Assembly: GCF_013284245.2 (NCBI RefSeq)
Contig: NZ_CP085876.1
Coordinates: forward strand, 1,729,501 to 1,793,500
DNA length: 64,000 nt
Origin: Brevibacillus sp. DP1.3A
GTDB taxonomy: Bacteria > Bacillota > Bacilli > Brevibacillales > Brevibacillaceae
Direction: 5' to 3'
Below are positions 44,477 through 56,408 of this stretch, one piece after another. The position numbers were made by a program, and so were the translations under genes. Positions within the stretch are counted from its first letter, which is position 1; every line of letters begins with the position of its first letter. Under the pieces are notes generated by a model. The model was given only the letters and a program-made list of their open reading frames with translations, had not been told where the DNA came from and did no database searches.

Positions 44477-44603
44477 AAAATGCAACCAAACACACATAAA
44501 AACAATCAATTTACGTTGCGTTCATATCCGCTTAATATTTTCCCCGTAAGATTGGTGTCGTAGGAACCAAGAAATGAACATTCCGCAAAGAGGAGAGGTT
44601 CTC

Positions 44604-45680
44604 ATGAAGAAATGGCATTATCCTTTACTTGCTTCCGTTCTATCAATCGCGTTTTTAGCAGGATGTGGACAAGCACCAGGGTCACAACCAAACACACAAA
44701 CTTCCACAAAGGAAAGTACAACCGCCTCAGGAGAGATTACGGTTTATACGGCGCTGGAGGATGACCAGATCAAAACCTATTTGGAATCCTTCAAAGCGAA
44801 ATATCCAGATGTAAAGGTCAATATCGTCCGCGATTCTACAGGAATCATCACAGCAAAGCTACTGGCGGAAAAAGACAATCCACAAGCAGACGTCGTATGG
44901 GGAACAGCAGCGACAAGCCTGCTTGTACTCGAACAGCAAGGCATGCTCGAAAGGTATTCGCCGAAAGGAATCGAGAAGGTATCCCCGGAGTTTAAGGATT
45001 CCAAAGAACCTGCAAGCTGGGTAGGAATCGACGCGTGGGAGACAGCGGTCGCGGTCAATACAAAAGAGCTAGAAAAACGCAATTTGCCGATCCCGCGCTC
45101 ATATGAAGACCTGATCAAGCCAGAGTACAAAGGATTGATCGTGATGCCAAATCCGGCGTCTTCTGGAACTGGGCTTCTCACCATCAACGGAATCATGCAA
45201 CTGAAAGGGGAGCAAGAAGGCTGGGCGTATCTCGACAAGCTGCATGAAAATATGGCGATCTACACGCATTCCGGCTCGAAGCCAGCGAAAATGGCCGCAT
45301 CCGGCGAATATCCAATCGGCATTTCCTTCGGCTACCGTTCGATTACTGAGAAGAAAAAAGGCGCACCCGTTGAAGTCGTCTTCCCAACAGAAGGCTCGGG
45401 TTGGGATGTAGAGGCGAATGCCTTGATCAAAAAGAGTGAGATCAAGCCAGAATCCAAGCTGTTCTTGGACTGGGCCATCTCCGATGAAGTCATGAAAGCC
45501 TATAACCAAAACTTCGCCATCGTCAGTGTTAAGCAAGAAGGCGCGACACTCCCGGAAGGCTACGCAGTAGATCCGATCAAGCAATTAATCAAGCTCGACC
45601 TGAATCAAGCCGCACAAAATCGTGACAACGTCTTGGCGGAGTGGGAAAAACGATACGGGACCAAGAGTGAACCCAAGTAA
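44604..45680 (+). CDS. phnS: 2-Aminoethylphosphonate ABC transporter, solute-binding lipoprotein
   Basis: A 358-residue SBP of the iron/phosphonate type. The lipobox is [10 protein letters not shown], and the mature domain opens [20 protein letters not shown] and includes [23 protein letters not shown] 44604 has AGAGGAGAGG; the upstream ATG 44574 does not. Family assignment to phosphonate uptake rests mainly on the phnT, fused permease, phnX and phnW genes behind it. Confidence 0.85.
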
Positions 45681-45697: not shown

Positions 45698-46747
45698 ATG
45701 ACACAATCCTATCTATCCATTCAAGGGGTCAGTAAACGCTTTGGTTTGTTTGCCGCATTGGAGCACATTTCCATCGAAATTGACGAGAATGAATTTGTTT
45801 GTCTACTCGGTCCCAGTGGCTGCGGTAAAACGACATTACTGAGAATGCTGGCTGGATTGGAACAGCCGACGACAGGCAAGATGATCCTGGGAGGCAGGGA
45901 GATTACTTCCCTGCCACCAGCAAAACGAAACATTGCGATGATGTTCCAATCGTACGCATTGTTTCCCAATTTGACGGCTGCCGAAAATATTGCCTTTGGC
46001 CTGCAAGAAAAGAAGCTAGGGAAAAAAGAGATCGCAGCCAAAGTAGAAGAGGCGCTAGACATGGTTGATTTGTCTCATGCCGCCGCCAAATATCCCAGCC
46101 AGCTCTCAGGCGGTCAACAGCAGCGAATTGCCTTGGCGAGAGCGATTTCTCTATCGCCGGATGTCTTGCTTTTAGATGAACCACTATCCGCATTGGATGC
46201 AAAAGTAAGACAAAAGCTGCGCCGGGAGATTCGGCGTTTGCATGAGCAGTACGGCATGACAACAGTGATGGTCACGCATGACCAAGATGAGGCATTGACC
46301 ATGGCAGACAAGATCGTCGTCATGGATCACGGCGAGGTCGTTCAGGTAGGCACACCCGAGGAGATCTATAACACCCCAGCCACTCCGTTTGTTGCTGATT
46401 TTATCGGAGCGATCAACTTTTTTGAGTACAGTCGCTTTGAGAATGAGCAATCTGATCCGAATCGCTTACTTGCGATCAGACCGGAGCATGTGCGGATTTT
46501 GCAGCAAGAATCCGAATGCGCCATACCTGCGACGATTTCCGAGATAGAATTTCGCGGTGCTTTTTACCGAATCTTTCTAGCGTGGCAAGAGGAAGGCCAG
46601 ATAAAAAAAGAGCTTCTGACAATCGATTTGATAGCGGCCGAGGCACAAAGAATTGGGATTGCCCGAGGCAAAAAGGTGTGGCTGGAGTTTCCGTTGGAGA
46701 ATTTGCTGACCTTTGAGCATGCGCCAGCCATAGAGGAACAGGGGTGA
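45698..46747 (+). CDS. phnT: 2-Aminoethylphosphonate ABC transporter ATPase
   Basis: A 349-residue ABC ATPase with Walker A GPSGCGKTT (about 39), signature LSGGQQQRIALARAI, Walker B VLLLDEPLSALD and H-loop VTHDQ. A C-terminal TOBE-like domain (about 245-340) is typical of the PotA/FbpC/PhnT group. It begins 17 bases after phnS, with GAGGAG upstream. Confidence 0.9.
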   Translation: MTQSYLSIQGVSKRFGLFAALEHISIEIDENEFVCLLGPSGCGKTTLLRMLAGLEQPTTGKMILGGREITSLPPAKRNIAMMFQSYALFPNLTAAENIAFGLQEKKLGKKEIAAKVEEALDMVDLSHAAAKYPSQLSGGQQQRIALARAISLSPDVLLLDEPLSALDAKVRQKLRREIRRLHEQYGMTTVMVTHDQDEALTMADKIVVMDHGEVVQVGTPEEIYNTPATPFVADFIGAINFFEYSRFENEQSDPNRLLAIRPEHVRILQQESECAIPATISEIEFRGAFYRIFLAWQEEGQIKKELLTIDLIAAEAQRIGIARGKKVWLEFPLENLLTFEHAPAIEEQG

Positions 46748-48462
46748 GCAGCATGAAGGAAATAACATCGCTCTTCGATGGAAAAGCCATGCAAAAGTGG
46801 TTCATCGCTCTCGTCGTACTTGGATTGTCAGCGAGTGTTCTGTTGCCACTAGGCCAGTTGTTTTCCAAAGCATTCTATAACAAGAACGGTCAGTTCATCG
46901 GCCTGGACAATTTCGTTACGTACTTTTCCACCCCAGCACTGGCAGGGTCACTGAATAATACCTTGTACATTTCTGCGATGACGACGCTGATCGCAGTCAC
47001 ACTCGCTTTTCTGTTCGCGTATGCCTTGACGCGCAGCGGGATTCGCGGAAAACGAGTCTTTCGGGCGATCGCGCTGTTGCCGCTGTTTGCGCCCACGATG
47101 ATGCACGGAATCGCCCTGACCTACCTCTTTGGGAATCAAGGGCTGGTGACGACGGGGATCTTCGGGTTGCTCCCGTTTCAATGGGACATCGATTTGTACG
47201 GCCAAGTGGGGATTATTTTGGCGGAGATCGTCTATGTTTTCCCGCAAGCGTATTTGATTCTCGCTGTTTCCCTTGCTTTTGCCGACTATCAGCTGTACGA
47301 AGCGGCGGATACGCTCGGGGCGAACCATTGGCGCAAATTTTTTGTAGTAACGATTCCTAGCGTGAAATACGGTATCGTCAGCGCCTGCTTTGTCTGTTTT
47401 ACTCTCTCGTTTACTGACTTCGGGGCACCAAAGGTTGTCGGCGGACAGTTTTCCGTAATGGCGACAGACGTCTACAAGCAGGTCATCGGTCAGCAAAATA
47501 TGACGATGGGAGCAACGGTTGGGCTGCTTTTGATCATTCCCGCTCTCGTGGCGTTTATCGTGGACCGGATTGTTGAGCGGAAGCAACACGCGGCTGTAAC
47601 AGCCAAGTCCAAACCGTATCGAATCAAGGAAAATCGTTTGCGCGACTTATTTTATTTCATTCTCTGTGTGAGCGTCAGCGGATTTTTGCTGCTTCTCATG
47701 GCTGCGGTGGTACTGGCTTCTTTCATCAAAGTATGGCCGTACAATCTGACTTTCGGCTTGGATCATTACGACTTTTCCAACGTAGCCGGAGAAGGGATCG
47801 AGCCACTGTGGAACAGTATTCTGGTCGCTTTGCTGACGGCAGTGATCGGGACGGCGGTCACGTTTATTACCGCCTACACCATTGAAAAATCCCAAGTGTG
47901 GAAGGGGCTTCGCCAAGCTGGATACTTCCTGTCGATTCTCCCCTTGGCATTGCCGGGGATGGTCATTGGACTAGCGTACATTTTCTTCTTCAATAATCCA
48001 TCAAATCCATTTCACGGCATGTACGGAACGATCTGGATTTTGATTTTGGCGAACGTCATTCATTTTTTCGCAGTTGGCTTCATTACAGCAACGAGCGCGT
48101 TGAAAAAGCTCGATCCCGAATTCGAGCAAGCGGCAGAGTCCATGGGGATCTCGCAGACAAAGCTATTGTGGCGCGTCACGATTCCCGTCTGTATGCCGGC
48201 GATTGTCGAAATGGTGGTGTACTTTTTCATCAACTCGATGGTGACGATTTCGGCGGTTGTTTTTCTGTACGCAGCGGATTTCAAGTTGGCATCTGTCTCC
48301 ATCATCAACATGGATGACGCAGGGGATGTGGCTCCGGCAGCAGCGATGTCGGTATTGATCGTTTTCCTCAACATCATCGCACGTGCTGGCGCAGAATGGA
48401 TCGCATCCAAACTTCGCAAGCGGACAACAGGGTCCTACCAAGAGAAAGGTCAGGTGGCATAA
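46744..48462 (+). CDS. 2-Aminoethylphosphonate ABC transporter permease, two fused permease units
   Basis: A 572-residue membrane protein in which two permease domains, each with about six TM segments and an EAA motif (YEAADTLGANHWRKFFVVTIP at about 180; FEQAAESMGISQTKLLWRVTIP at about 460), are fused. It corresponds to PhnU plus PhnV in systems that encode them separately. GTG 46744 overlaps the phnT stop; ATG 46753 is an alternative. Confidence 0.88.
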   Translation: MSSMKEITSLFDGKAMQKWFIALVVLGLSASVLLPLGQLFSKAFYNKNGQFIGLDNFVTYFSTPALAGSLNNTLYISAMTTLIAVTLAFLFAYALTRSGIRGKRVFRAIALLPLFAPTMMHGIALTYLFGNQGLVTTGIFGLLPFQWDIDLYGQVGIILAEIVYVFPQAYLILAVSLAFADYQLYEAADTLGANHWRKFFVVTIPSVKYGIVSACFVCFTLSFTDFGAPKVVGGQFSVMATDVYKQVIGQQNMTMGATVGLLLIIPALVAFIVDRIVERKQHAAVTAKSKPYRIKENRLRDLFYFILCVSVSGFLLLLMAAVVLASFIKVWPYNLTFGLDHYDFSNVAGEGIEPLWNSILVALLTAVIGTAVTFITAYTIEKSQVWKGLRQAGYFLSILPLALPGMVIGLAYIFFFNNPSNPFHGMYGTIWILILANVIHFFAVGFITATSALKKLDPEFEQAAESMGISQTKLLWRVTIPVCMPAIVEMVVYFFINSMVTISAVVFLYAADFKLASVSIINMDDAGDVAPAAAMSVLIVFLNIIARAGAEWIASKLRKRTTGSYQEKGQVA

Positions 48463-48465
48463 AGC

Positions 48466-49260
48466 ATGAAAGCAGTAGTATTTGATTGGGCAGGAACGAT
48501 GGTAGATTACGGATGTTTCGCTCCTTTAGCTGTCTTTTTGCAGGTGTTCAAAAACCGGGGGATTGAGCTGACAGCAGCAGAAGCGCGCGAACCGATGGGG
48601 ATGCTCAAGCGCGATCATATCCAGGCACTTTGCAAAATGGAGCGGGTAGCAGCGCTTTGGCAAGAGCGTTACGGTCGACTTCCGAATGAAGCGGATGTGG
48701 ACGAATTGTACGCTGACTTTGAACCGATGCTGATGGCGACGCTGCACGAGTACGCCACTCCTGTTCCGGGAGCAATTGAATTGGTAGGACGACTGCGCGA
48801 GCAAGGAATCAAAATCGGCTCGACCACAGGCTACACGAGAGAAATGATGAACGTCGTAGCGGCCTCAGCTAAACAACAGGGCTACGAGCCAGACGCACTG
48901 GTCACCCCGAGTGAAGTGCCTGCTGGACGTCCATATCCATGGATGTGCTATCAAAATGCGATCCTGCTGGATGTATATCCCATGAACGAGATGGTCAAAG
49001 TCGGTGATACGACAAGCGATATGAAAGAAGGAAGAAACGCCGGGATGTGGACCGTTGGTGTCCTGAAGGGTGGAAGCGAGCTCGGCTTGTCCTTGGAGGA
49101 AGTGATGAGTATGCCACAGGAAGAGCTGGATAAAAGGTTGGCTATCGCAACAGAACGACTGATGGCGGCGGGTGCGCACTACGTGATCGAGGAGATCGGA
49201 TGCTTGGATGAGGTGCTAAAAAACATCGAGATGCGTCATGCAGGAGGAGAGAGACCATGA
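48466..49260 (+). CDS. phnX: Phosphonoacetaldehyde hydrolase
   Basis: A 264-residue HAD-superfamily phosphonatase. The nucleophile loop is [12 protein letters not shown] (Asp at about 9), the Schiff-base Lys lies in [10 protein letters not shown] (about 52), and [12 protein letters not shown] carries the Mg-binding acids. It hydrolyses phosphonoacetaldehyde to acetaldehyde and phosphate, the second step after PhnW. It starts 3 bases after the permease stop and overlaps phnW by 4 bases. Confidence 0.95.
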
Positions 49261-50375
49261 ATCAGACACGACCAACCGACAATTCGTACTTGTTGCTCAC
49301 CCCCGGACCATTAACCACTTCATCAACCGTACGCGAGGCAATGCTGCGGGACTGGTGCACCTGGGATCGGGATTACAATGAACTGGTACAGGAAATCCGC
49401 CAAAAGCTCGTCCGATTGGCAACCTCGCAGGTAGAGGAGTATACGAGCGTTTTGGTGCAAGGCAGCGGGACCTTTTGTGTGGAAGCGGTGGTGAGCAGTG
49501 CGATTCCCGCAGACGGCAAGCTGCTCGTCCTGACGAATGGCGCATATGGGGATCGGATCGTGGAAATGGCACAAGTCCATGGAATCGCGACGGAGGTAAT
49601 TGATTTTGGCGAAGTGACAAAAGCCGATGTAGAGGCAGTGGAGCAGAAACTAGCAGCGGATGCAACGATCACGCATGTGGCTGTCGTGCATTCAGAAACG
49701 ACTACCGGCATGCTCAATCCCATCAAAGAAATCGGTGAAGTCGCCAAGAAGTACGGAAAAGTCTATATCGTAGATGCGATGAGCAGCTTCGGTGGCATTC
49801 CGATGGATGCAGCAGAGCTCTCGATCGACTTCCTGATCTCAAGCGCAAACAAATGCATCCAAGGTGTGCCTGGCTTTGGTTTTGTCATTGCCAAAACTTC
49901 TGCGCTCATCAAATGCAAAGGGATTGCCCGTACGTTGTCCCTCGATTTGTACAGCCAGTGGAAGACGATGGAGGAGCAAAACGGAAAGTGGCGCTATACT
50001 TCTCCGACTCATGTCGTGCGAGCTTTTTATCAAGCACTGATAGAGCTTGAGGCAGAAGGGGGAGTTGAAAAACGCTACGAGCGTTACCAGCGAAATCAGC
50101 AGCTACTCGCAGAAGGCATGGAGCGCATTGGTTTTCGCATCCTGTTGCCAAAAGAATCGCAATCGCCCTTCATCACTTCCTTTTATTATCCCGAAAGCGA
50201 AGCATTCACCTTTGCACAGCTGTATGAGCGGTTAAAGCAGGCAGGCTTCGTCATTTATCCGGGCAAAATCTCGCAAGCGGACACGTTTCGGATTGGCAAT
50301 ATCGGAGAGGTTTACCCAGAGGATATCGAGAGATTAATCGCTGCTATGGAAAACAATCGTTTCTGGCTGGAGTAA
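49257..50375 (+). CDS. phnW: 2-Aminoethylphosphonate-pyruvate transaminase
   Basis: A 372-residue PLP fold-type I aminotransferase. It opens [19 protein letters not shown] and has [15 protein letters not shown], the PLP Asp in VDAMSSFGG and the PLP Lys in [12 protein letters not shown] (about 194). It transfers the amino group of 2-aminoethylphosphonate to pyruvate, giving phosphonoacetaldehyde for PhnX. The ATG overlaps the phnX end (ATGA), with GGAGG upstream. Confidence 0.95.
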
Positions 50376-50394: not shown

Positions 50395-51558
50395 ATGAAA
50401 GTGTTTTGCTTGGGTGGAGCGGGAAATATTTGTCGAGAAGCTGTGCTCGATCTCGTGATGCATTCGGATTTTGAGCAGATCACGATCGGCGATTTTAATG
50501 AAGAAGAAGGTCGCAAGGTAGTCGAGTGGCTGAACGATCCACGCGTAGATTTTGTTCCGGTAAATGTACGCGATCATGCGGATACGGTCCAAAAAATGCG
50601 CGGTTACGACATCGTCATGGACGGAACCACGATCACGCTGAACGGCCTGTCTACTGCTGCGATTGCGGAGGCTGGCTGCCATGGCATCAATTTGAACGGT
50701 TTTGGGGAAGAAAACGCATCGGATGCGATCTTTCGCGACCATGGGAAGACTTGTCTGCCAGGCTTTGGCATGACGCCTGGACTGACCCAAATGATGGCGA
50801 TGCATGCAGCGAACCAGCTCGATGAAGTCGACGAAGTCCGCGTCAGCCACGGTTCCTTTCGCCCGATTGCCTTTTCCAAATCGATCACAGAGACGACGAC
50901 CTATGAGTATGATCCAGATTTGCCAGGGCGCGTCGTCTATGAAAATGGCGCATTCATTCAAGTCCCGCCATTTGCTCGCCCACGCGAAATAAAGCTTCCC
51001 GAGCCGTATGGAAAAACCATTCAGTACATCATTCCTCATGCAGAGACAAAAACGCTCGCACAGGCTTTGTCTCCAAAAGGGGTAAAGCTGATCGAGGTGC
51101 GGGGAACATGGCCGAAGCAAAACATGGAGCTGGTCAAAGCCCTCTATGATTATGGCTTTTTACGGAACGATCCCATCACGGTAGGCGAAACAAAGGTAGG
51201 AATCCTTGATTGTATCTCCCAATACCTCTACAATTCTAGGGAGGGAAAAGAGACGGAATTATACGGGTATTCTCTTCATGTCGAGGTGACAGGTACCAAG
51301 GACGGTTGCAAAGTAGGACACATCCTGTACCATACACATCCGGCATCTGACGGCTCTGTAGCTGACTGGGCTGGGCTGCGCGCCTATACCCGCAACGTAG
51401 GAATCCCGCTGGCGATTGCGACTGAGCAGATCGCAAAAGGAAACGTAAAAGCTATTGGCGTCATAACTCCAGAAGAAGCATTTGATCCGGCTGTGATTTT
51501 TCACGAGCTGGCAAAACGTCAGATTTACATCCATGGAGAGAAGATCGAAATGACGTAA
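50395..51558 (+). CDS. Saccharopine dehydrogenase-like oxidoreductase in the phosphonate operon
   Basis: A 387-residue protein with an N-terminal Rossmann fold (FCLGGAGNICREAVLDL, TIGDFNEEEGRKVV) and the C-terminal saccharopine-dehydrogenase domain (CLPGFGMTPGLTQMMAMHAA). Family members form or split secondary amines between an amino acid and an aldehyde or keto acid. I prefer ATG 50395 (GGGAGG 8 bases upstream) over GTG 50392. It lies 19 bases behind phnW and before the DeoR gene. This enzyme is not a known component of the PhnW/PhnX pathway. It may act on an N-substituted aminoethylphosphonate, or on the alanine or acetaldehyde produced; this is inference. Confidence 0.8.
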   Translation: MKVFCLGGAGNICREAVLDLVMHSDFEQITIGDFNEEEGRKVVEWLNDPRVDFVPVNVRDHADTVQKMRGYDIVMDGTTITLNGLSTAAIAEAGCHGINLNGFGEENASDAIFRDHGKTCLPGFGMTPGLTQMMAMHAANQLDEVDEVRVSHGSFRPIAFSKSITETTTYEYDPDLPGRVVYENGAFIQVPPFARPREIKLPEPYGKTIQYIIPHAETKTLAQALSPKGVKLIEVRGTWPKQNMELVKALYDYGFLRNDPITVGETKVGILDCISQYLYNSREGKETELYGYSLHVEVTGTKDGCKVGHILYHTHPASDGSVADWAGLRAYTRNVGIPLAIATEQIAKGNVKAIGVITPEEAFDPAVIFHELAKRQIYIHGEKIEMT

Positions 51559-51583: not shown

Positions 51584-52372
51584 GTGTCGTTGTTCGGGGA
51601 AGAGCGTAAGCAAATCATTTTGCAGTTGATCAATTCCAATGGCAAGGTGCGGACCAATGAACTGGTCGAAAAGCTGCAAGTCTCGTCTGAGTCGATCCGC
51701 AGGTATTTGGAAGAGCTGGAAGCGGAGAAAAAGCTGAAGCGGGTTTATGGCGGAGCCGTAAAGCTGACAGTGGAGCGCTCTGAGCCTTCTCATTTTGCCC
51801 GTGAAGTCTTGCGAGCGGAAGAAAAGAAACGGATTGGACGGTTGGCTGCAGACTTGGTGCAAGACAGCGATACCATTGTCATCGATGAAGGGACAACGCC
51901 TTTGAAAATGATCAGCTTTCTCGTGACGAAAAAAGATTTGACGATCCTCACTAGCTCGATCACAGCGCTGAATCGATTAATCGAGTACCAAAACAATGGA
52001 ATGCTTGCGGCAGACATCTATTTCCTAGGTGGAAAGGTGAGCGCCAAGCATCATCGGGTAAGCGGGACCTATGCAGAGAAGATGATGAAACAATTTTATG
52101 TGGACAAGGCGTTTATCGCGGCAGACGGCATCTTGCTCCATAAAGGCTTGACCTGCTATGAGCCGGATCGAACGGAACTCGCCCGTTGTTTCATCGAAAA
52201 TGCCAATGAAAGTATTGTGCTAGCGGACCACTCCAAGATCGGGGTAAGCACATTGTGCAAGATCGCAGACTTGGGAGAGGTCGACATCGTGATCAGCGAT
52301 ACGGCAGCACCAGCAGAATGGAATAAAGGACTCCAAGCAAAAAATGTAGCATGGATGGTAGCAGAGGAGTAG
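51584..52372 (+). CDS. DeoR-family transcriptional regulator
   Basis: A 262-residue regulator: the N-terminal winged helix is KQIILQLINSNGKVRTNELV then LQVSSESIRRYLEELE, and the C-terminal DeoRC sensor has VIDEGTTPLKM and KAFIAADGILLHKG. GTG 51584 is preceded by AGGGGG. As the last gene of the phosphonate operon it presumably controls the upstream genes; DeoR sensors usually bind phosphorylated metabolites. Confidence 0.88.
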   Translation: MSLFGEERKQIILQLINSNGKVRTNELVEKLQVSSESIRRYLEELEAEKKLKRVYGGAVKLTVERSEPSHFAREVLRAEEKKRIGRLAADLVQDSDTIVIDEGTTPLKMISFLVTKKDLTILTSSITALNRLIEYQNNGMLAADIYFLGGKVSAKHHRVSGTYAEKMMKQFYVDKAFIAADGILLHKGLTCYEPDRTELARCFIENANESIVLADHSKIGVSTLCKIADLGEVDIVISDTAAPAEWNKGLQAKNVAWMVAEE

Positions 52373-52379
52373 TAGTAAG

Positions 52380-52416
52380 CAGGCCAGCGATTCCCCACGA
52401 CAGGGAAGCTGGCCTG
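52380..52416. terminator. Hairpin between convergent genes
   Basis: CAGGCCAGC (52380-52388) pairs perfectly with GCTGGCCTG (52408-52416), followed by TTGGCTTT. It is shared by the DeoR gene (+) and the AraC-type gene (-). Confidence 0.8.
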
Positions 52417-52422
52417 TTGGCT

Positions 52423-54069
52423 TTAGGAAGAATGGCGCAGCAAAAGTGGCAGCATATGCAGCAATCTCTCTCTGGTAAGGGCAGCGCCATAATTCCATTT
52501 TTGCGCTTCTACAACATAGACATAGCCGTTCTGAACGGCAGGCAGACTGTGCCACCTATCACTTTGCATGAATGCGATGGTAGCCTGACGCGATTCGGGG
52601 TCTTCGGACAGCAGTATAAAGATCCGATCGCCTGCGTACAGGGGGATGTCCTCCTCTCGAATTTCAATAAAGCCGTAGCCAGCTTGCAATACTTCTTGAA
52701 TTTTATCCACAGGAGAAAAACCGTTTGGATGGTAGAGGGCGGAGGAAAGTCCTGAAGTGCCCATTACAAACAGTCGCCCGCCTTGCCCATGGATAAAGAC
52801 AGATGCAGTCTCACCCGGCACAAGCTCGGAACAGAGCTGATTCCACATAGCGGTAGCATTCGTGTGGTATTTCCTGAGCCATTCTCGCGCCTCGTTCTTT
52901 TTCCCCAGCCAGTCTCCCAGTGTATGCAACCGTTCCTCCAGCGAAGCAAATGAATTAAACGTGAGTGTTGGGGCAATCTGGCTCATCTGCTTGTATTTGT
53001 CTTCTTCTGCGTTTGCGAAAATGATCAGATCTGGCTTCAATGTCGTCAAATGATCATAGTCAACAGGAAAGGAGATATCGTGCATGTGTCTCACCCTGTC
53101 TCGATAGATCGTTCGTTCCATCCAGGTAAAATTCCCGCCGACGATATTTTCAACATGGAGCGCGAGCAAATCATTAAACGTCTCCCCAATATAAATGATG
53201 CGTTGTGGCTGAAGAGGGATCTCTACCTCATGCCCTGTCCAGTCCTGCACGAGCTCCATGCGGTGAGTCAGCCTGGAATATTGCCTTGGCGTGTAACCGG
53301 TCGTCTTTCGAAACCGACGATTGAAGTAATACTCATCCGTGAAGCCGACCTGCGAGGCGATGTCCCGCAATGAATCGTTCGAGCTTTTCAGGAGCTTTTT
53401 CGCATGATGAATACGCAGTGCGGTCAAATACTCCAAAGGCTTTTTACCCGTCAACTGGCGAAAGAGCAGCGTGTACTGCCACGACGGCACATTGGCCAGT
53501 TGTGCCAACTGCTTGACCGTCATGTTCTCTTGATAATTTTGTTGGATATAAGCAATGCTGTTCTCGACCTCTTTGCTCTTGCTAGGGATATGGTCAGGAG
53601 AGAGATTTTGCTCCAGCAAAAATCCGAGCAGCTTCTGGAACCGCAATTGCTGCCAAAAGCTGTCCATTTCAGAAGAAGTTGAACGGCCCAAGAGCAAAGC
53701 CTCACATAAGCGCAAGAGCCGGGCAGAAGGGTGAGCCGACAGCTCGATACGGCCATCAAGCAGTGCGTGTGGGTACGGTAGTGGTCTATTGTCTGCATCG
53801 AACTGAATGACGGTAAACGAGATTTGGTAGCAATCAATCGCGCTGTCGTACAAGGATTCGATAGCAAAAGGGGTAGACGGTAAAAGTAAAAAACACTTTC
53901 CTGCCAAAGGTGAAGTCGTTTGGTCGTCAATACGGAGGCTGCCGTAACCTTTTGTGAAGAAGAGCAGGGTATGGAAGGGAGTGGGTGAAGGACTAGCCGT
54001 CCGCTCTACTTTACACAACTGAAAATGAAGGGAACCGAGCGGGGGATGAGGTGGTATAGAGTGAAGCAT
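52423..54069 (-). CDS. AraC-family regulator with C-terminal siderophore-binding domain (Btr type)
   Basis: A 548-residue regulator. It has an N-terminal cupin-like region, an AraC double HTH (about 180-275; MTVKQLAQLANVPSWQYTLL, DIASQVGFTDEYYFNRRFRK), then a complete Fe-siderophore binding-protein domain (about 280-545; IPLQPQRIIYIGETFNDLLA). That domain closely matches the lipoprotein encoded just upstream at 54174-55160. In B. subtilis, Btr of this layout binds ferric siderophore and activates feuABC. ATG 54069 has AAAGGAGGG at an ideal distance. A Fur box overlaps the leader. Confidence 0.92.
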   Translation of the reverse strand: MLHSIPPHPPLGSLHFQLCKVERTASPSPTPFHTLLFFTKGYGSLRIDDQTTSPLAGKCFLLLPSTPFAIESLYDSAIDCYQISFTVIQFDADNRPLPYPHALLDGRIELSAHPSARLLRLCEALLLGRSTSSEMDSFWQQLRFQKLLGFLLEQNLSPDHIPSKSKEVENSIAYIQQNYQENMTVKQLAQLANVPSWQYTLLFRQLTGKKPLEYLTALRIHHAKKLLKSSNDSLRDIASQVGFTDEYYFNRRFRKTTGYTPRQYSRLTHRMELVQDWTGHEVEIPLQPQRIIYIGETFNDLLALHVENIVGGNFTWMERTIYRDRVRHMHDISFPVDYDHLTTLKPDLIIFANAEEDKYKQMSQIAPTLTFNSFASLEERLHTLGDWLGKKNEAREWLRKYHTNATAMWNQLCSELVPGETASVFIHGQGGRLFVMGTSGLSSALYHPNGFSPVDKIQEVLQAGYGFIEIREEDIPLYAGDRIFILLSEDPESRQATIAFMQSDRWHSLPAVQNGYVYVVEAQKWNYGAALTRERLLHMLPLLLRHSS

Positions 54070-54089
54070 CGGTTGTGCCCTCCTTTTTA

Positions 54090-54104
54090 TGAGAATCATT
54101 ATCA
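54090..54104. promoter_or_regulatory. Fur box upstream of the AraC-type regulator gene
   Basis: TGAGAATCATTATCA matches the 7-1-7 Fur consensus (TGATAATNATTATCA) at all but one position. It lies 21 bases before the minus-strand start. Confidence 0.8.
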
Positions 54105-54122
54105 TTCGTTCTATCCATCGTA

Positions 54123-54164
54123 TACAAAAGAAAGAAGCTTTTCAATCATTGTTGAAAAGCTTCT
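54123..54164 (-). terminator. Terminator of the siderophore-binding lipoprotein gene
   Basis: AGAAGCTTTTCAA pairs perfectly with TTGAAAAGCTTCT. On the minus strand the stem is followed by TTCTTTTG. Confidence 0.87.
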
Positions 54165-54173
54165 CCTATTTCA

Positions 54174-55160
54174 TTACTTCGCCAGGATTTCAGGAATCCT
54201 TTGCAGGAGCCATTCTCTTGTTGTCGCATCACTGCTAGATTTTTCGATGTCGATAAAGTAGACATATCCGTTTTTAACAGCAGGGAGGTCCTTCCAGATG
54301 CGTGATTTTAGCAGCTCCTGCGTTGATTTCTCCGCTTCCTCGCTCGCAGTATTCAGTATAAAGATACGATCTCCCGCTATTTCGGGCAAACGTTCCACAG
54401 AGATGAGTTCAAATCCTTTTTGTGCATCGAGTATTTCCTGAATGGGCGCAGTCGGCTTGAATCCATTTGTATCGTAGAGGACTTGGGAAAGCCCTGTTCT
54501 TGCCATGACAAACAGCCGATCACCCGGATAATAGGTAAAGACAGAGACGGTTTCTCCTTCTTTCATGATGCCAGACTCCTTCAGCTTCTTCCACATCTCT
54601 TCCGATTTGCGCTTGTAATCGGCAAGCCATTTGGTGGCTGCTTCGGGTTTTCCAATCATATCTCCGAGCTGGGTCATCCGCTCTTCCAACGGCGCGAATG
54701 TATCAAAAATGACGGTAGGGGCGATTTTGGATAGCTGTTCATATTCTTTTTCTTCGGTATTTGCATGGATGATCAGGTCGGGCTGTAATTCCAGGACCTT
54801 TTCGAGATTAATGGGAAAACCGACATTCTCGACATCGTGCAGCTGGTCCTCAAAGATTTGGTTGGCGTACCCGAATCCCCCAATCGGCTTCACGCCCAAC
54901 GCGAGCATATCGCCAAAGGTCTCACCGGAATAGATGATTCGTGCAGGGGAGACCGGGATGTTGCCTGCATGCCCGAGATAATCAGTATATGGACGCGTCT
55001 GGTTTTTCTGACTAGCCGCGCTGCTCGTTGTGCTCGTTGCTTCTTGTCCAAGCGTGGAAGCGGTAGTTGCTTGCGAAGCGGATGGACTGCATCCGATGAG
55101 CAAGCTGCTAGTCAGTATGAAGATTCCTAGTGTTCCGCTTATGTTGCGCATGTGTTTCAT
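54174..55160 (-). CDS. Iron-siderophore ABC transporter, substrate-binding lipoprotein
   Basis: A 328-residue FecB/FeuA-type protein. The lipobox is SSLLIGCSPS, followed by a Ser/Thr-rich linker, then the binding fold (PVSPARIIYSGETFGDMLAL, LQPDLIIHANTEEKEYEQLS, NGYVYFIDI). GGAGG lies on the minus strand before ATG 55160. A perfect Fur box is 43 bases upstream. It presumably delivers its siderophore to the two FecCD permeases at 58263-60352, although these lie 3 kb away. Confidence 0.92.
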   Translation of the reverse strand: MKHMRNISGTLGIFILTSSLLIGCSPSASQATTASTLGQEATSTTSSAASQKNQTRPYTDYLGHAGNIPVSPARIIYSGETFGDMLALGVKPIGGFGYANQIFEDQLHDVENVGFPINLEKVLELQPDLIIHANTEEKEYEQLSKIAPTVIFDTFAPLEERMTQLGDMIGKPEAATKWLADYKRKSEEMWKKLKESGIMKEGETVSVFTYYPGDRLFVMARTGLSQVLYDTNGFKPTAPIQEILDAQKGFELISVERLPEIAGDRIFILNTASEEAEKSTQELLKSRIWKDLPAVKNGYVYFIDIEKSSSDATTREWLLQRIPEILAK

Positions 55161-55203
55161 TTCTATTTTCCTCCAGTAGTCGTTTGAATCTGCTTGCTTT
55201 CAA

Positions 55204-55218
55204 TGATAATCATTATCA
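55204..55218. promoter_or_regulatory. Perfect Fur box
   Basis: TGATAATCATTATCA is an exact 15-base Fur palindrome, 43 bases before the minus-strand siderophore-binding gene. The strong match predicts tight iron repression. Confidence 0.92.
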
Positions 55219-55379
55219 GATATCGCTTAACAGCTCAATGGACAAACGTCATATAGCCATCATTGATTTTGTACAAAGGGAAGGATTTCACACGGACAGT
55301 TGTGGAGTTTGGACAAAAAATAATGGAGAAAATGCATTGTCAGATGGCGAGGAAACACATATGATCAGGATGCAAATAG

Positions 55380-55394
55380 TGAGAATGAGTATCA
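55380..55394. promoter_or_regulatory. Fur box upstream of the second binding-protein gene
   Basis: TGAGAATGAGTATCA fits the 7-1-7 pattern with mismatches, and a further GATAATCATC half lies at about 55399. The coding start is about 40 bases downstream. Confidence 0.65.
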
Positions 55395-55433
55395 ATTCGA
55401 TAATCATCAACAGATGCGAGAGAGGGTAGAAAG

Positions 55434-56408
55434 ATGGTAAGAACGGTTCGAAATGCAGGATTGGCATGGATGGCATTATTATTGATCATGATGCTCGTGT
55501 TAACTGCGTGTGCAGAAAAAGCAGCGGAGCCAACATCCACTGAGCAGAAAGCATCGACAGAGAACACCGCTGCAAAAACCAAAGTGGTTAAAGACGCCTA
55601 TGGCGATGTAGAAATTCCGGTAAATCCAAAGCGAGTAGCGGCGATTTATCAGGAGGACTTCTTGACAGCACTGGGTGTAACCCCGGTTGTCCAGTGGTAT
55701 CACCCGGCGTGGGGCAAACAGGATTACCTCGGGCTGGACGTGCCGCTTTTTGATATTACGGGAAGTATTGAAGCGTTACTTGCAGCCAATCCGGATATCA
55801 TCATTGTGGATGGCTACGCTGATCCTAAGAAATACGAGGAATTCAGCAAGGTAGCTCCTACGTACAAGCTGCCGGATGAACTCCGTAACGACACGATTGG
55901 AAGACTCAAGAAAATCGCCGAGGTGCTAGGCGTTCCAGAAAAAGCAGACGAAGCGATCCAAAAGTATAATGAGAAAATTGCGGATACCAAGGCAAAGCTT
56001 GAAAAGGCGATTGGCAACGAAACGGTGGCCGTCATTCGTTTGAACGTGGGAAATAAGCCGAATTTGGCCCTCTTCGGAGATGGCAATGTTTACACAGGCA
56101 TGCTCTATAAGGAGTTGGGCCTTACGCCATATTCCGCTGCCAAAAATCAAGAAACACACGTGGTATTATCAGAAGAAGCCATCCCGGCTATCGATGCAGA
56201 CCATATCATTGTGTTCCCGTCGAACGGCACGTGGACTTCCGAAGAAAACAAGGATGCGCTCAAGATTTTGGAGAGCCCGATCTGGAAATCTGTTCCTGCT
56301 GTGAAAAAAGGTCATGTCTACCCAATGGAGCGGACACATTGGCAATCCGGTGCCATGCTGGCCAATATGAAGAAGGCAGACGACTTGGTCAAAGCGTTTG
56401 TAAAGTAA
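55434..56408 (+). CDS. Second iron-siderophore ABC transporter substrate-binding lipoprotein
   Basis: A 324-residue FecB-type lipoprotein. Lipobox LVLTACAEK; binding fold with DAYGDVEIPVNPKRVAAIYQ, FLTALGVTPVVQWYHPAWGK and ANPDIIIVDGYADPKKYEEF. It is only distantly related to the first binding protein but closely matches the C-terminal domain of the AraC-type regulator immediately downstream. It belongs to an iron-regulated transcript with its own terminator. Confidence 0.92.
   Translation: MVRTVRNAGLAWMALLLIMMLVLTACAEKAAEPTSTEQKASTENTAAKTKVVKDAYGDVEIPVNPKRVAAIYQEDFLTALGVTPVVQWYHPAWGKQDYLGLDVPLFDITGSIEALLAANPDIIIVDGYADPKKYEEFSKVAPTYKLPDELRNDTIGRLKKIAEVLGVPEKADEAIQKYNEKIADTKAKLEKAIGNETVAVIRLNVGNKPNLALFGDGNVYTGMLYKELGLTPYSAAKNQETHVVLSEEAIPAIDADHIIVFPSNGTWTSEENKDALKILESPIWKSVPAVKKGHVYPMERTHWQSGAMLANMKKADDLVKAFVK

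Follow-up and report, generated by a model that had tools for sequence, protein, structure and literature searches.

A saccharopine-dehydrogenase-like protein of 2-aminoethylphosphonate operons in Firmicutes: a candidate NAD+-dependent source of phosphonoacetaldehyde

In the window, i.e., the 64,000-nucleotide stretch of the Brevibacillus sp. DP1.3A genome analysed here, the operon for 2-aminoethylphosphonate (AEP), the commonest natural phosphonate, carries a further gene whose 387-aa product belongs to the saccharopine dehydrogenase clan (Table 1). From its genomic associations, predicted fold and active-site residues, this protein is probably, though far from certainly, an NAD+-dependent amine dehydrogenase making phosphonoacetaldehyde, the likeliest substrate being N-methyl-AEP or else AEP itself.

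The open reading frame is intact and starts at an ATG (50395) that a GGGAGG ribosome site precedes by 8 bases, or at an alternative GTG (50392). Both domains of the clan score above the Pfam gathering thresholds, namely Sacchrp_dh_NADP (PF03435; 56.8 bits against 25.1) and Sacchrp_dh_C (PF16653; 68.8 bits against 31). The 6.66 Mb source genome has one copy of the gene, and the closest relatives found are those of Brevibacillus formosus and B. porteri. A preliminary description of this DNA had placed the gene 19 bases after phnW and ahead of a DeoR regulator, and the coordinates agree: 19 bases separate it from the phnW stop (50375) and 25 bases from the GTG start of deoR (51584), with gaps of -4 to +25 bases over the entire AEP operon. 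Such tight spacing, together with the hairpin 3' of deoR, suggests a single transcript. Visual inspection and folding revealed the hairpin; a scan for promoter and terminator consensus sequences gave counts no better than shuffles, and this hairpin is not among its entries. Downstream of the operon (window positions 52423-56408), the open reading frames read as two iron-siderophore-type binding proteins and as a regulator of AraC type that seems to be fused to a binding-protein domain.

Table 1. Features of the AEP operon (window positions) and microcompartment gene sets in related loci (locus:positions)
Feature	Location	Strand	Evidence or remark
PhnS2, AEP ABC transporter substrate-binding protein	44574..45680	+	TIGR03261 464 bits, cut-off 393
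PhnT2, AEP ABC transporter ATP-binding protein	45698..46747	+	TIGR03265 461 bits, cut-off 458
PhnU2, AEP ABC transporter permease	46744..48462	+	TIGR03262 741 bits, cut-off 593
phnX, phosphonoacetaldehyde hydrolase	48466..49260	+	TIGR01422 372 bits, cut-off 220
phnW, 2-aminoethylphosphonate--pyruvate transaminase	49257..50375	+	TIGR02326 598 bits, cut-off 400.8
Saccharopine-dehydrogenase-like gene	50395..51558	+	387 aa; PF03435 and PF16653 above cut-off
DeoR-family regulator, probable operon regulator	51584..52372	+	PF00455 and PF08220; 3' of the gene in 32/46 related loci
Strong hairpin after deoR, likely operon transcription end	52380..52418	+	MFE -29.2 kcal/mol, z -4.15 vs shuffles
Microcompartment set	L052:11240-15408
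Microcompartment set	L056:11218-15388
Microcompartment set	L054:7884-12092
Microcompartment set	L058:11251-15480
Microcompartment set	L049:11108-15221
Microcompartment set	L034:11020-15111
Microcompartment set	L076:11167-14835
Microcompartment set	L145:1136-5059
Microcompartment set	L151:10855-15013

When 84,980 species genomes were scanned, 46 loci came up with relatives at about 68-99% identity, 45 from Firmicutes (Brevibacillus, Aneurinibacillus, Paenibacillus, Pontibacillus and Bacillus-type genera) and one from a Verrucomicrobiales MAG. Forty-four lie inside an AEP cluster or at most about 16 kb from one; the two Brevibacillus reuszeri copies L036 and L038, at first sight unlinked to AEP genes, proved to share a contig with phnW, at distances of about 12 and 16 kb. 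Around the gene in Lederbergia lenta and in the Verrucomicrobiales MAG (2/46 loci), no AEP genes were found. As for gene order, phnW is directly upstream in 32 loci, and the gene is itself directly upstream of deoR in 32 and of phnX in 7. The survey of phnWX operons proposed in the preliminary description thus shows the association recurring across many genera, and the counter-case named there, an association confined to this genome, does not hold.

All 21 gene carriers among 398 sampled Bacilli genomes possess PhnW, which is found in 41 of these genomes overall (Fisher p about 6e-24, a nominal value as genomes share ancestry); outside Brevibacillus, six carriers out of six are PhnW-positive (p about 5e-8, nominal for the same reason). 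Within Brevibacillus, PhnW occurs in 17 genomes, and it is these 17, and no others, in which the gene or its decayed remnant is found. Decaying or frameshifted copies (G002:C1:144824-146359, G009:C21:36678-38009 and G013:C33; L014/L025, L074) stand beside a phnW that is intact in G002 and G013 and decayed in G009. Since collinear AEP operons without the gene exist as well, i.e., L149 and L150 in two genomes of another family and L152, a second B. reuszeri operon, the gene is accessory and not core: recurrent in phnWX clusters (44/46 loci) and dispensable for them, it is tied to AEP use yet not required. The earlier idea of an accessory AEP-catabolic enzyme with which the substrate range widens is supported, the substrate itself being predicted.

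The gene is more conserved than PhnW in every one of the 37 loci compared, with a median identity of 74% against 63% for PhnW and 59% for PhnX, and is by this measure evidently under strong constraint. The mirror-tree correlation between the gene and PhnW (0.74) is no higher than that of other operon pairs, e.g., PhnX-permease (0.74); it shows only joint inheritance of the operon. That a lysine- or polyamine-pathway enzyme would sit in the AEP operon by chance, as annotation by domain and a slight resemblance to carboxynorspermidine synthase (30.5 bits, cut-off 800) might suggest, is scarcely credible given the exclusive co-occurrence with PhnW, the recurrence in many genera and a score so far below the NCBIfam cut-off. 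The co-occurrence leads us to reject such a role as the main function, and it makes unlikely the other counter-case of the preliminary description, action on lysine-pathway substrates, the substrate range being predicted from context.

The AlphaFold model of the protein, built from 42 sequences (mean pLDDT 91), matches solved clan members over its whole length (Z 29-40 over 336-369 residues). The nearest fold is that of carboxyspermidine dehydrogenase (8DEB; Z 39.9), the lowest rmsd is obtained with L-lysine 6-dehydrogenase (3ABI; 2.4 A, Z 37.0), and against the predicted model saccharopine reductase gives Z 31-32 and homospermidine synthase about 25. The published active site of 8DEB comprises His228, Glu229, Glu230, Glu188 and Ser144, Glu229 being a second glutamate proposed to position the substrate (PMC10413350). 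By alignment, His228, Glu230, Glu188 and Ser144 correspond to H215, E217, E171 and T131 of the 387-aa protein, the first three invariant, and the position of Glu229 is occupied by Ala/Ser216, the motif H215-(A/S)216-E217 occurring in 42/42 sequences. On this alignment, the second, substrate-positioning glutamate is lost, and the proton relay is retained along with one substrate glutamate; a small partner amine (ammonia, methylamine) would fit such a site better than would an amino acid of the opine-like kind.

This loss bears on the opine-like substrates favoured in the preliminary description, i.e., on a saccharopine-like splitting of N-(2-phosphonoethyl)amino acids. Saccharopine is a conjugate of this sort and its reductase has the same fold, but with Ala/Ser in place of the second glutamate amino-acid conjugates appear the less fitting substrates, and we know of no natural phosphonate that is an N-(2-phosphonoethyl)amino acid; such a specificity is unlikely. 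Splitting of an N-substituted AEP was nonetheless right in kind, except that the regiochemistry of the clan, if it holds, would give phosphonoacetaldehyde and an amine (an amino acid for these conjugates), not free AEP and a keto acid.

Asp33, which closes the second strand, takes the place of Ser-Arg in the NADPH-using 8DEB and points to NAD as cofactor. A reductive role, in which phosphonoacetaldehyde or acetaldehyde is condensed with an amine, whether to detoxify or to build a phosphonate product, might be expected from the nearest characterised relative, carboxyspermidine dehydrogenase being a reductive condensing enzyme (PMC10413350); with an NAD-type aspartate and not an NADPH site, and with an uptake system and degradative enzymes as neighbours, we consider it very unlikely. 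The invariant residues R149, H152, R195 and R333, like most of the loop 313-HTHPxSDG-320, are absent or nearly so from 16 outgroup proteins. As a guess, these group-specific residues together with H313/H315, likewise invariant and specific to the group, could hold the phosphonate, and the loop, the least confident part of the AlphaFold model, could form an active-site lid, for which low model confidence would be expected.

Clan enzymes catalyse, in either direction, the joining of an aldehyde and an amine into a secondary or primary amine, and the carbon that changes redox state is that of the aldehyde. In an operon centred on phosphonoacetaldehyde, this chemistry makes oxidation of R-NH-CH2-CH2-phosphonate the natural reading; direction, NAD preference, product and substrate are inferred. 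NAD+ would take a hydride from the carbon adjoining the nitrogen of the AEP-type amine (R-NH-CH2-CH2-PO3), water would split the resulting imine into phosphonoacetaldehyde and R-NH2, His215 serving as general acid/base through a relay of Glu217 and Thr131, and PhnX would then free phosphate from phosphonoacetaldehyde. The predicted order of substrates is N-methyl-AEP (R = CH3) first, AEP (R = H) second and amino-acid conjugates third. N-methyl-AEP comes first because PhnW cannot use it, because it is converted by the known ancillary enzymes PbfC/PbfD, and because a motif screen found no PbfB/C/D-type FAD protein near the related loci; with PhnW in nearly all the same operons, direct oxidation of AEP would be redundant.

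The sub-case in which AEP replaces N-methyl-AEP, i.e., AEP + NAD+ + H2O -> phosphonoacetaldehyde + NH3 + NADH, would provide an entry to the pathway with no need of pyruvate, working when PhnW is limited. Lysine 6-dehydrogenase, the closest fold by rmsd, releases ammonia; this and the loss of the second glutamate are in its favour, as is a cluster with PhnX and without PhnW (L050). A precedent for replacement lies in pbfD2 genes, mostly found in clusters without phnW (PMC10590968, PMC12366243). Given that PhnW shares the operon in most loci (directly upstream in 32/46) and would make this activity redundant, AEP as the true substrate is possible but doubtful.

Several arrangements tie the gene to PhnX rather than to PhnW, as befits the preferred reading of a dehydrogenase supplying phosphonoacetaldehyde. 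In Bacillus sp. MUM 116, whose genome encodes three PhnX and two PhnW, one locus (L050) reads transporter-DeoR-MgtC-gene-PhnX without PhnW, the contig ending just after phnX, so that phnW possibly lies past its end; another (L145) has PhnW and PhnX without the saccharopine-dehydrogenase-like gene. In L058, the gene and phnX form a unit separate from a divergent phnW unit, and in Bacillus piscicola (L049) a second gene copy is accompanied only by DeoR and an AEP-type binding protein. The arrangements in L050/L145 and L049 support a product feeding PhnX directly, as a gene found with PhnX and without PhnW fits a cleavage to phosphonoacetaldehyde that bypasses PhnW. Distant relatives adjoin aldehyde dehydrogenases and polyamine transporters, neighbours suggestive of amine-to-aldehyde chemistry. 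No phosphonate genes were present in five contexts of plasmid-borne relatives (24-29% identity; haloarchaea and rhizobia), and only the close subfamily seems to have the phosphonate link.

A compact set of microcompartment genes lies directly or shortly 3' of phnX or deoR in about ten related loci (Table 1). These sets encode shell proteins of the BMC type (~165 and ~93 aa), a PduL-type phosphotransacylase, an acetylating acetaldehyde dehydrogenase (in the one scanned, TIGR02518 exceeds its cut-off), a conserved ~278-aa protein that Pfam does not recognise and a ~90-aa ORF with a homologue in a microcompartment locus of the source genome; genes for EutABC, including ethanolamine ammonia-lyase, are absent from the stretches read of these loci. 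The set looks like a metabolosome fed by the acetaldehyde of PhnX, for which no paper joining a metabolosome to PhnX/AEP clusters was found in the literature. The PhnX of these loci have no consistent C-terminal extension, sought as an encapsulation tail, and several have a longer N-terminus with uncertain start codons. Tentatively, and with considerable doubt, the dehydrogenase and PhnX might constitute a pyruvate-independent NAD+-linked route able to replace PhnW, coupled in about ten Bacillales loci to an acetaldehyde-capturing microcompartment (shell proteins, acetylating acetaldehyde dehydrogenase and PduL-type transacylase), i.e., a phosphonate-utilising metabolosome. The homologous microcompartment locus of the source genome lies elsewhere (G000:C1:421875-427000; L143, L144) among ORFs resembling, by eye, EutP, EutVW and EutABC, and appears to serve ethanolamine.

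Other neighbours recur. A ~180-aa MgtC-family membrane protein adjoins the dehydrogenase or the AEP operon in L034 (2235-2780), L050 (7277-7795), L056 (8185-8736) and nine other loci. Candidates for extra phosphonate carriers are an EamA transporter resembling, below cut-off, the phosphonate-utilisation associated membrane protein TIGR03340 (L036:15852-16718, L056:3621-4490) and a metabolite:H+ symporter in L052, L054, L056 and L058. PbfA, the R-1-hydroxy-AEP ammonia-lyase (NF049939), also occurs in Bacillales AEP clusters, scoring above cut-off in L068 (6510-7862) and L052 (15461-16816), the copy in L049 (124-780) being clipped by the locus edge.

If the proposed function is right, the enzyme would widen the phosphorus sources usable by soil bacteria, give a function to a protein group now labelled only "saccharopine dehydrogenase" and let the use of N-alkyl phosphonates in soil be followed by a genomic marker. 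The ancillary enzymes known to bring other phosphonates into the AEP pathway come mainly from Proteobacteria, which leaves a gap that a conserved NAD-linked Firmicutes enzyme of unrelated fold would fill.

Respective to known systems, PbfC and PbfD convert N-methyl-AEP, unusable by PhnW, to phosphonoacetaldehyde (PMC10590968, PMC12366243). The N-methyl-AEP oxidases PbfB/C/D are described as mainly proteobacterial, with some PVC-group members, and many Terrabacteria, cyanobacteria for the most part, have related FAD enzymes with phnWX/phnWYA clusters (PMC10590968), so that the PbfB/C/D type may yet occur in Firmicutes. Like PbfB, PbfC and PbfD, the 387-aa protein is encoded by an ancillary gene of such clusters, and it would share with them the product phosphonoacetaldehyde; they oxidise the amine adjoining the phosphonoethyl carbon (PMC10590968), a chemistry only predicted here. 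Whereas they are FAD proteins of the PF01266 fold, the Bacillales protein is of the NAD(P) Rossmann type and gives no PF01266 match, which places it in another family; it may work like PbfC/PbfD, though no member of them. PbfF, the 2-amino-1-hydroxyethylphosphonate racemase, is likewise NAD-linked, bears a dehydrogenase annotation and was recognised from its context in AEP clusters, but has a pfam02826 fold and occurs in Alphaproteobacteria, always with pbfA (PMC12366243). The present protein (PF03435/PF16653) is mostly found without pbfA, and identity with PbfF was rejected on the lack of a match to pfam02826 (D-isomer hydroxyacid dehydrogenase).

Within the clan, carboxyspermidine dehydrogenase (8DEB) shares the whole-length fold and, by alignment, the His/Glu/Ser-Thr relay and one substrate glutamate, but at 17-20% identity, and it is NADPH-dependent and reductive (PMC10413350); its Glu229 is replaced by Ala/Ser in the 387-aa protein, which has group-specific Arg/His residues in addition. 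Assignment as a carboxy(nor)spermidine dehydrogenase was rejected on the NF043000 score (30.5 bits, cut-off 800) and the missing His-Glu-Glu triad (H228, E229, E230). L-lysine 6-dehydrogenase (3ABI) resembles it in whole-length fold, with the lowest rmsd, and uses NAD to deaminate a primary amine oxidatively, yielding an aldehyde; it differs in its lysine substrate, at 21% identity, and is without phosphonate link. Saccharopine reductase (1E5Q/1FF9, human AASS) shares the fold and a C-N oxidation yielding an aldehyde, but is larger, 15-16% identical and of the lysine pathway. A literature search (subscription papers not covered) found no link between the saccharopine dehydrogenase family and AEP operons, and the protein would bring a new fold to an ancillary role in AEP clusters that has already been described.
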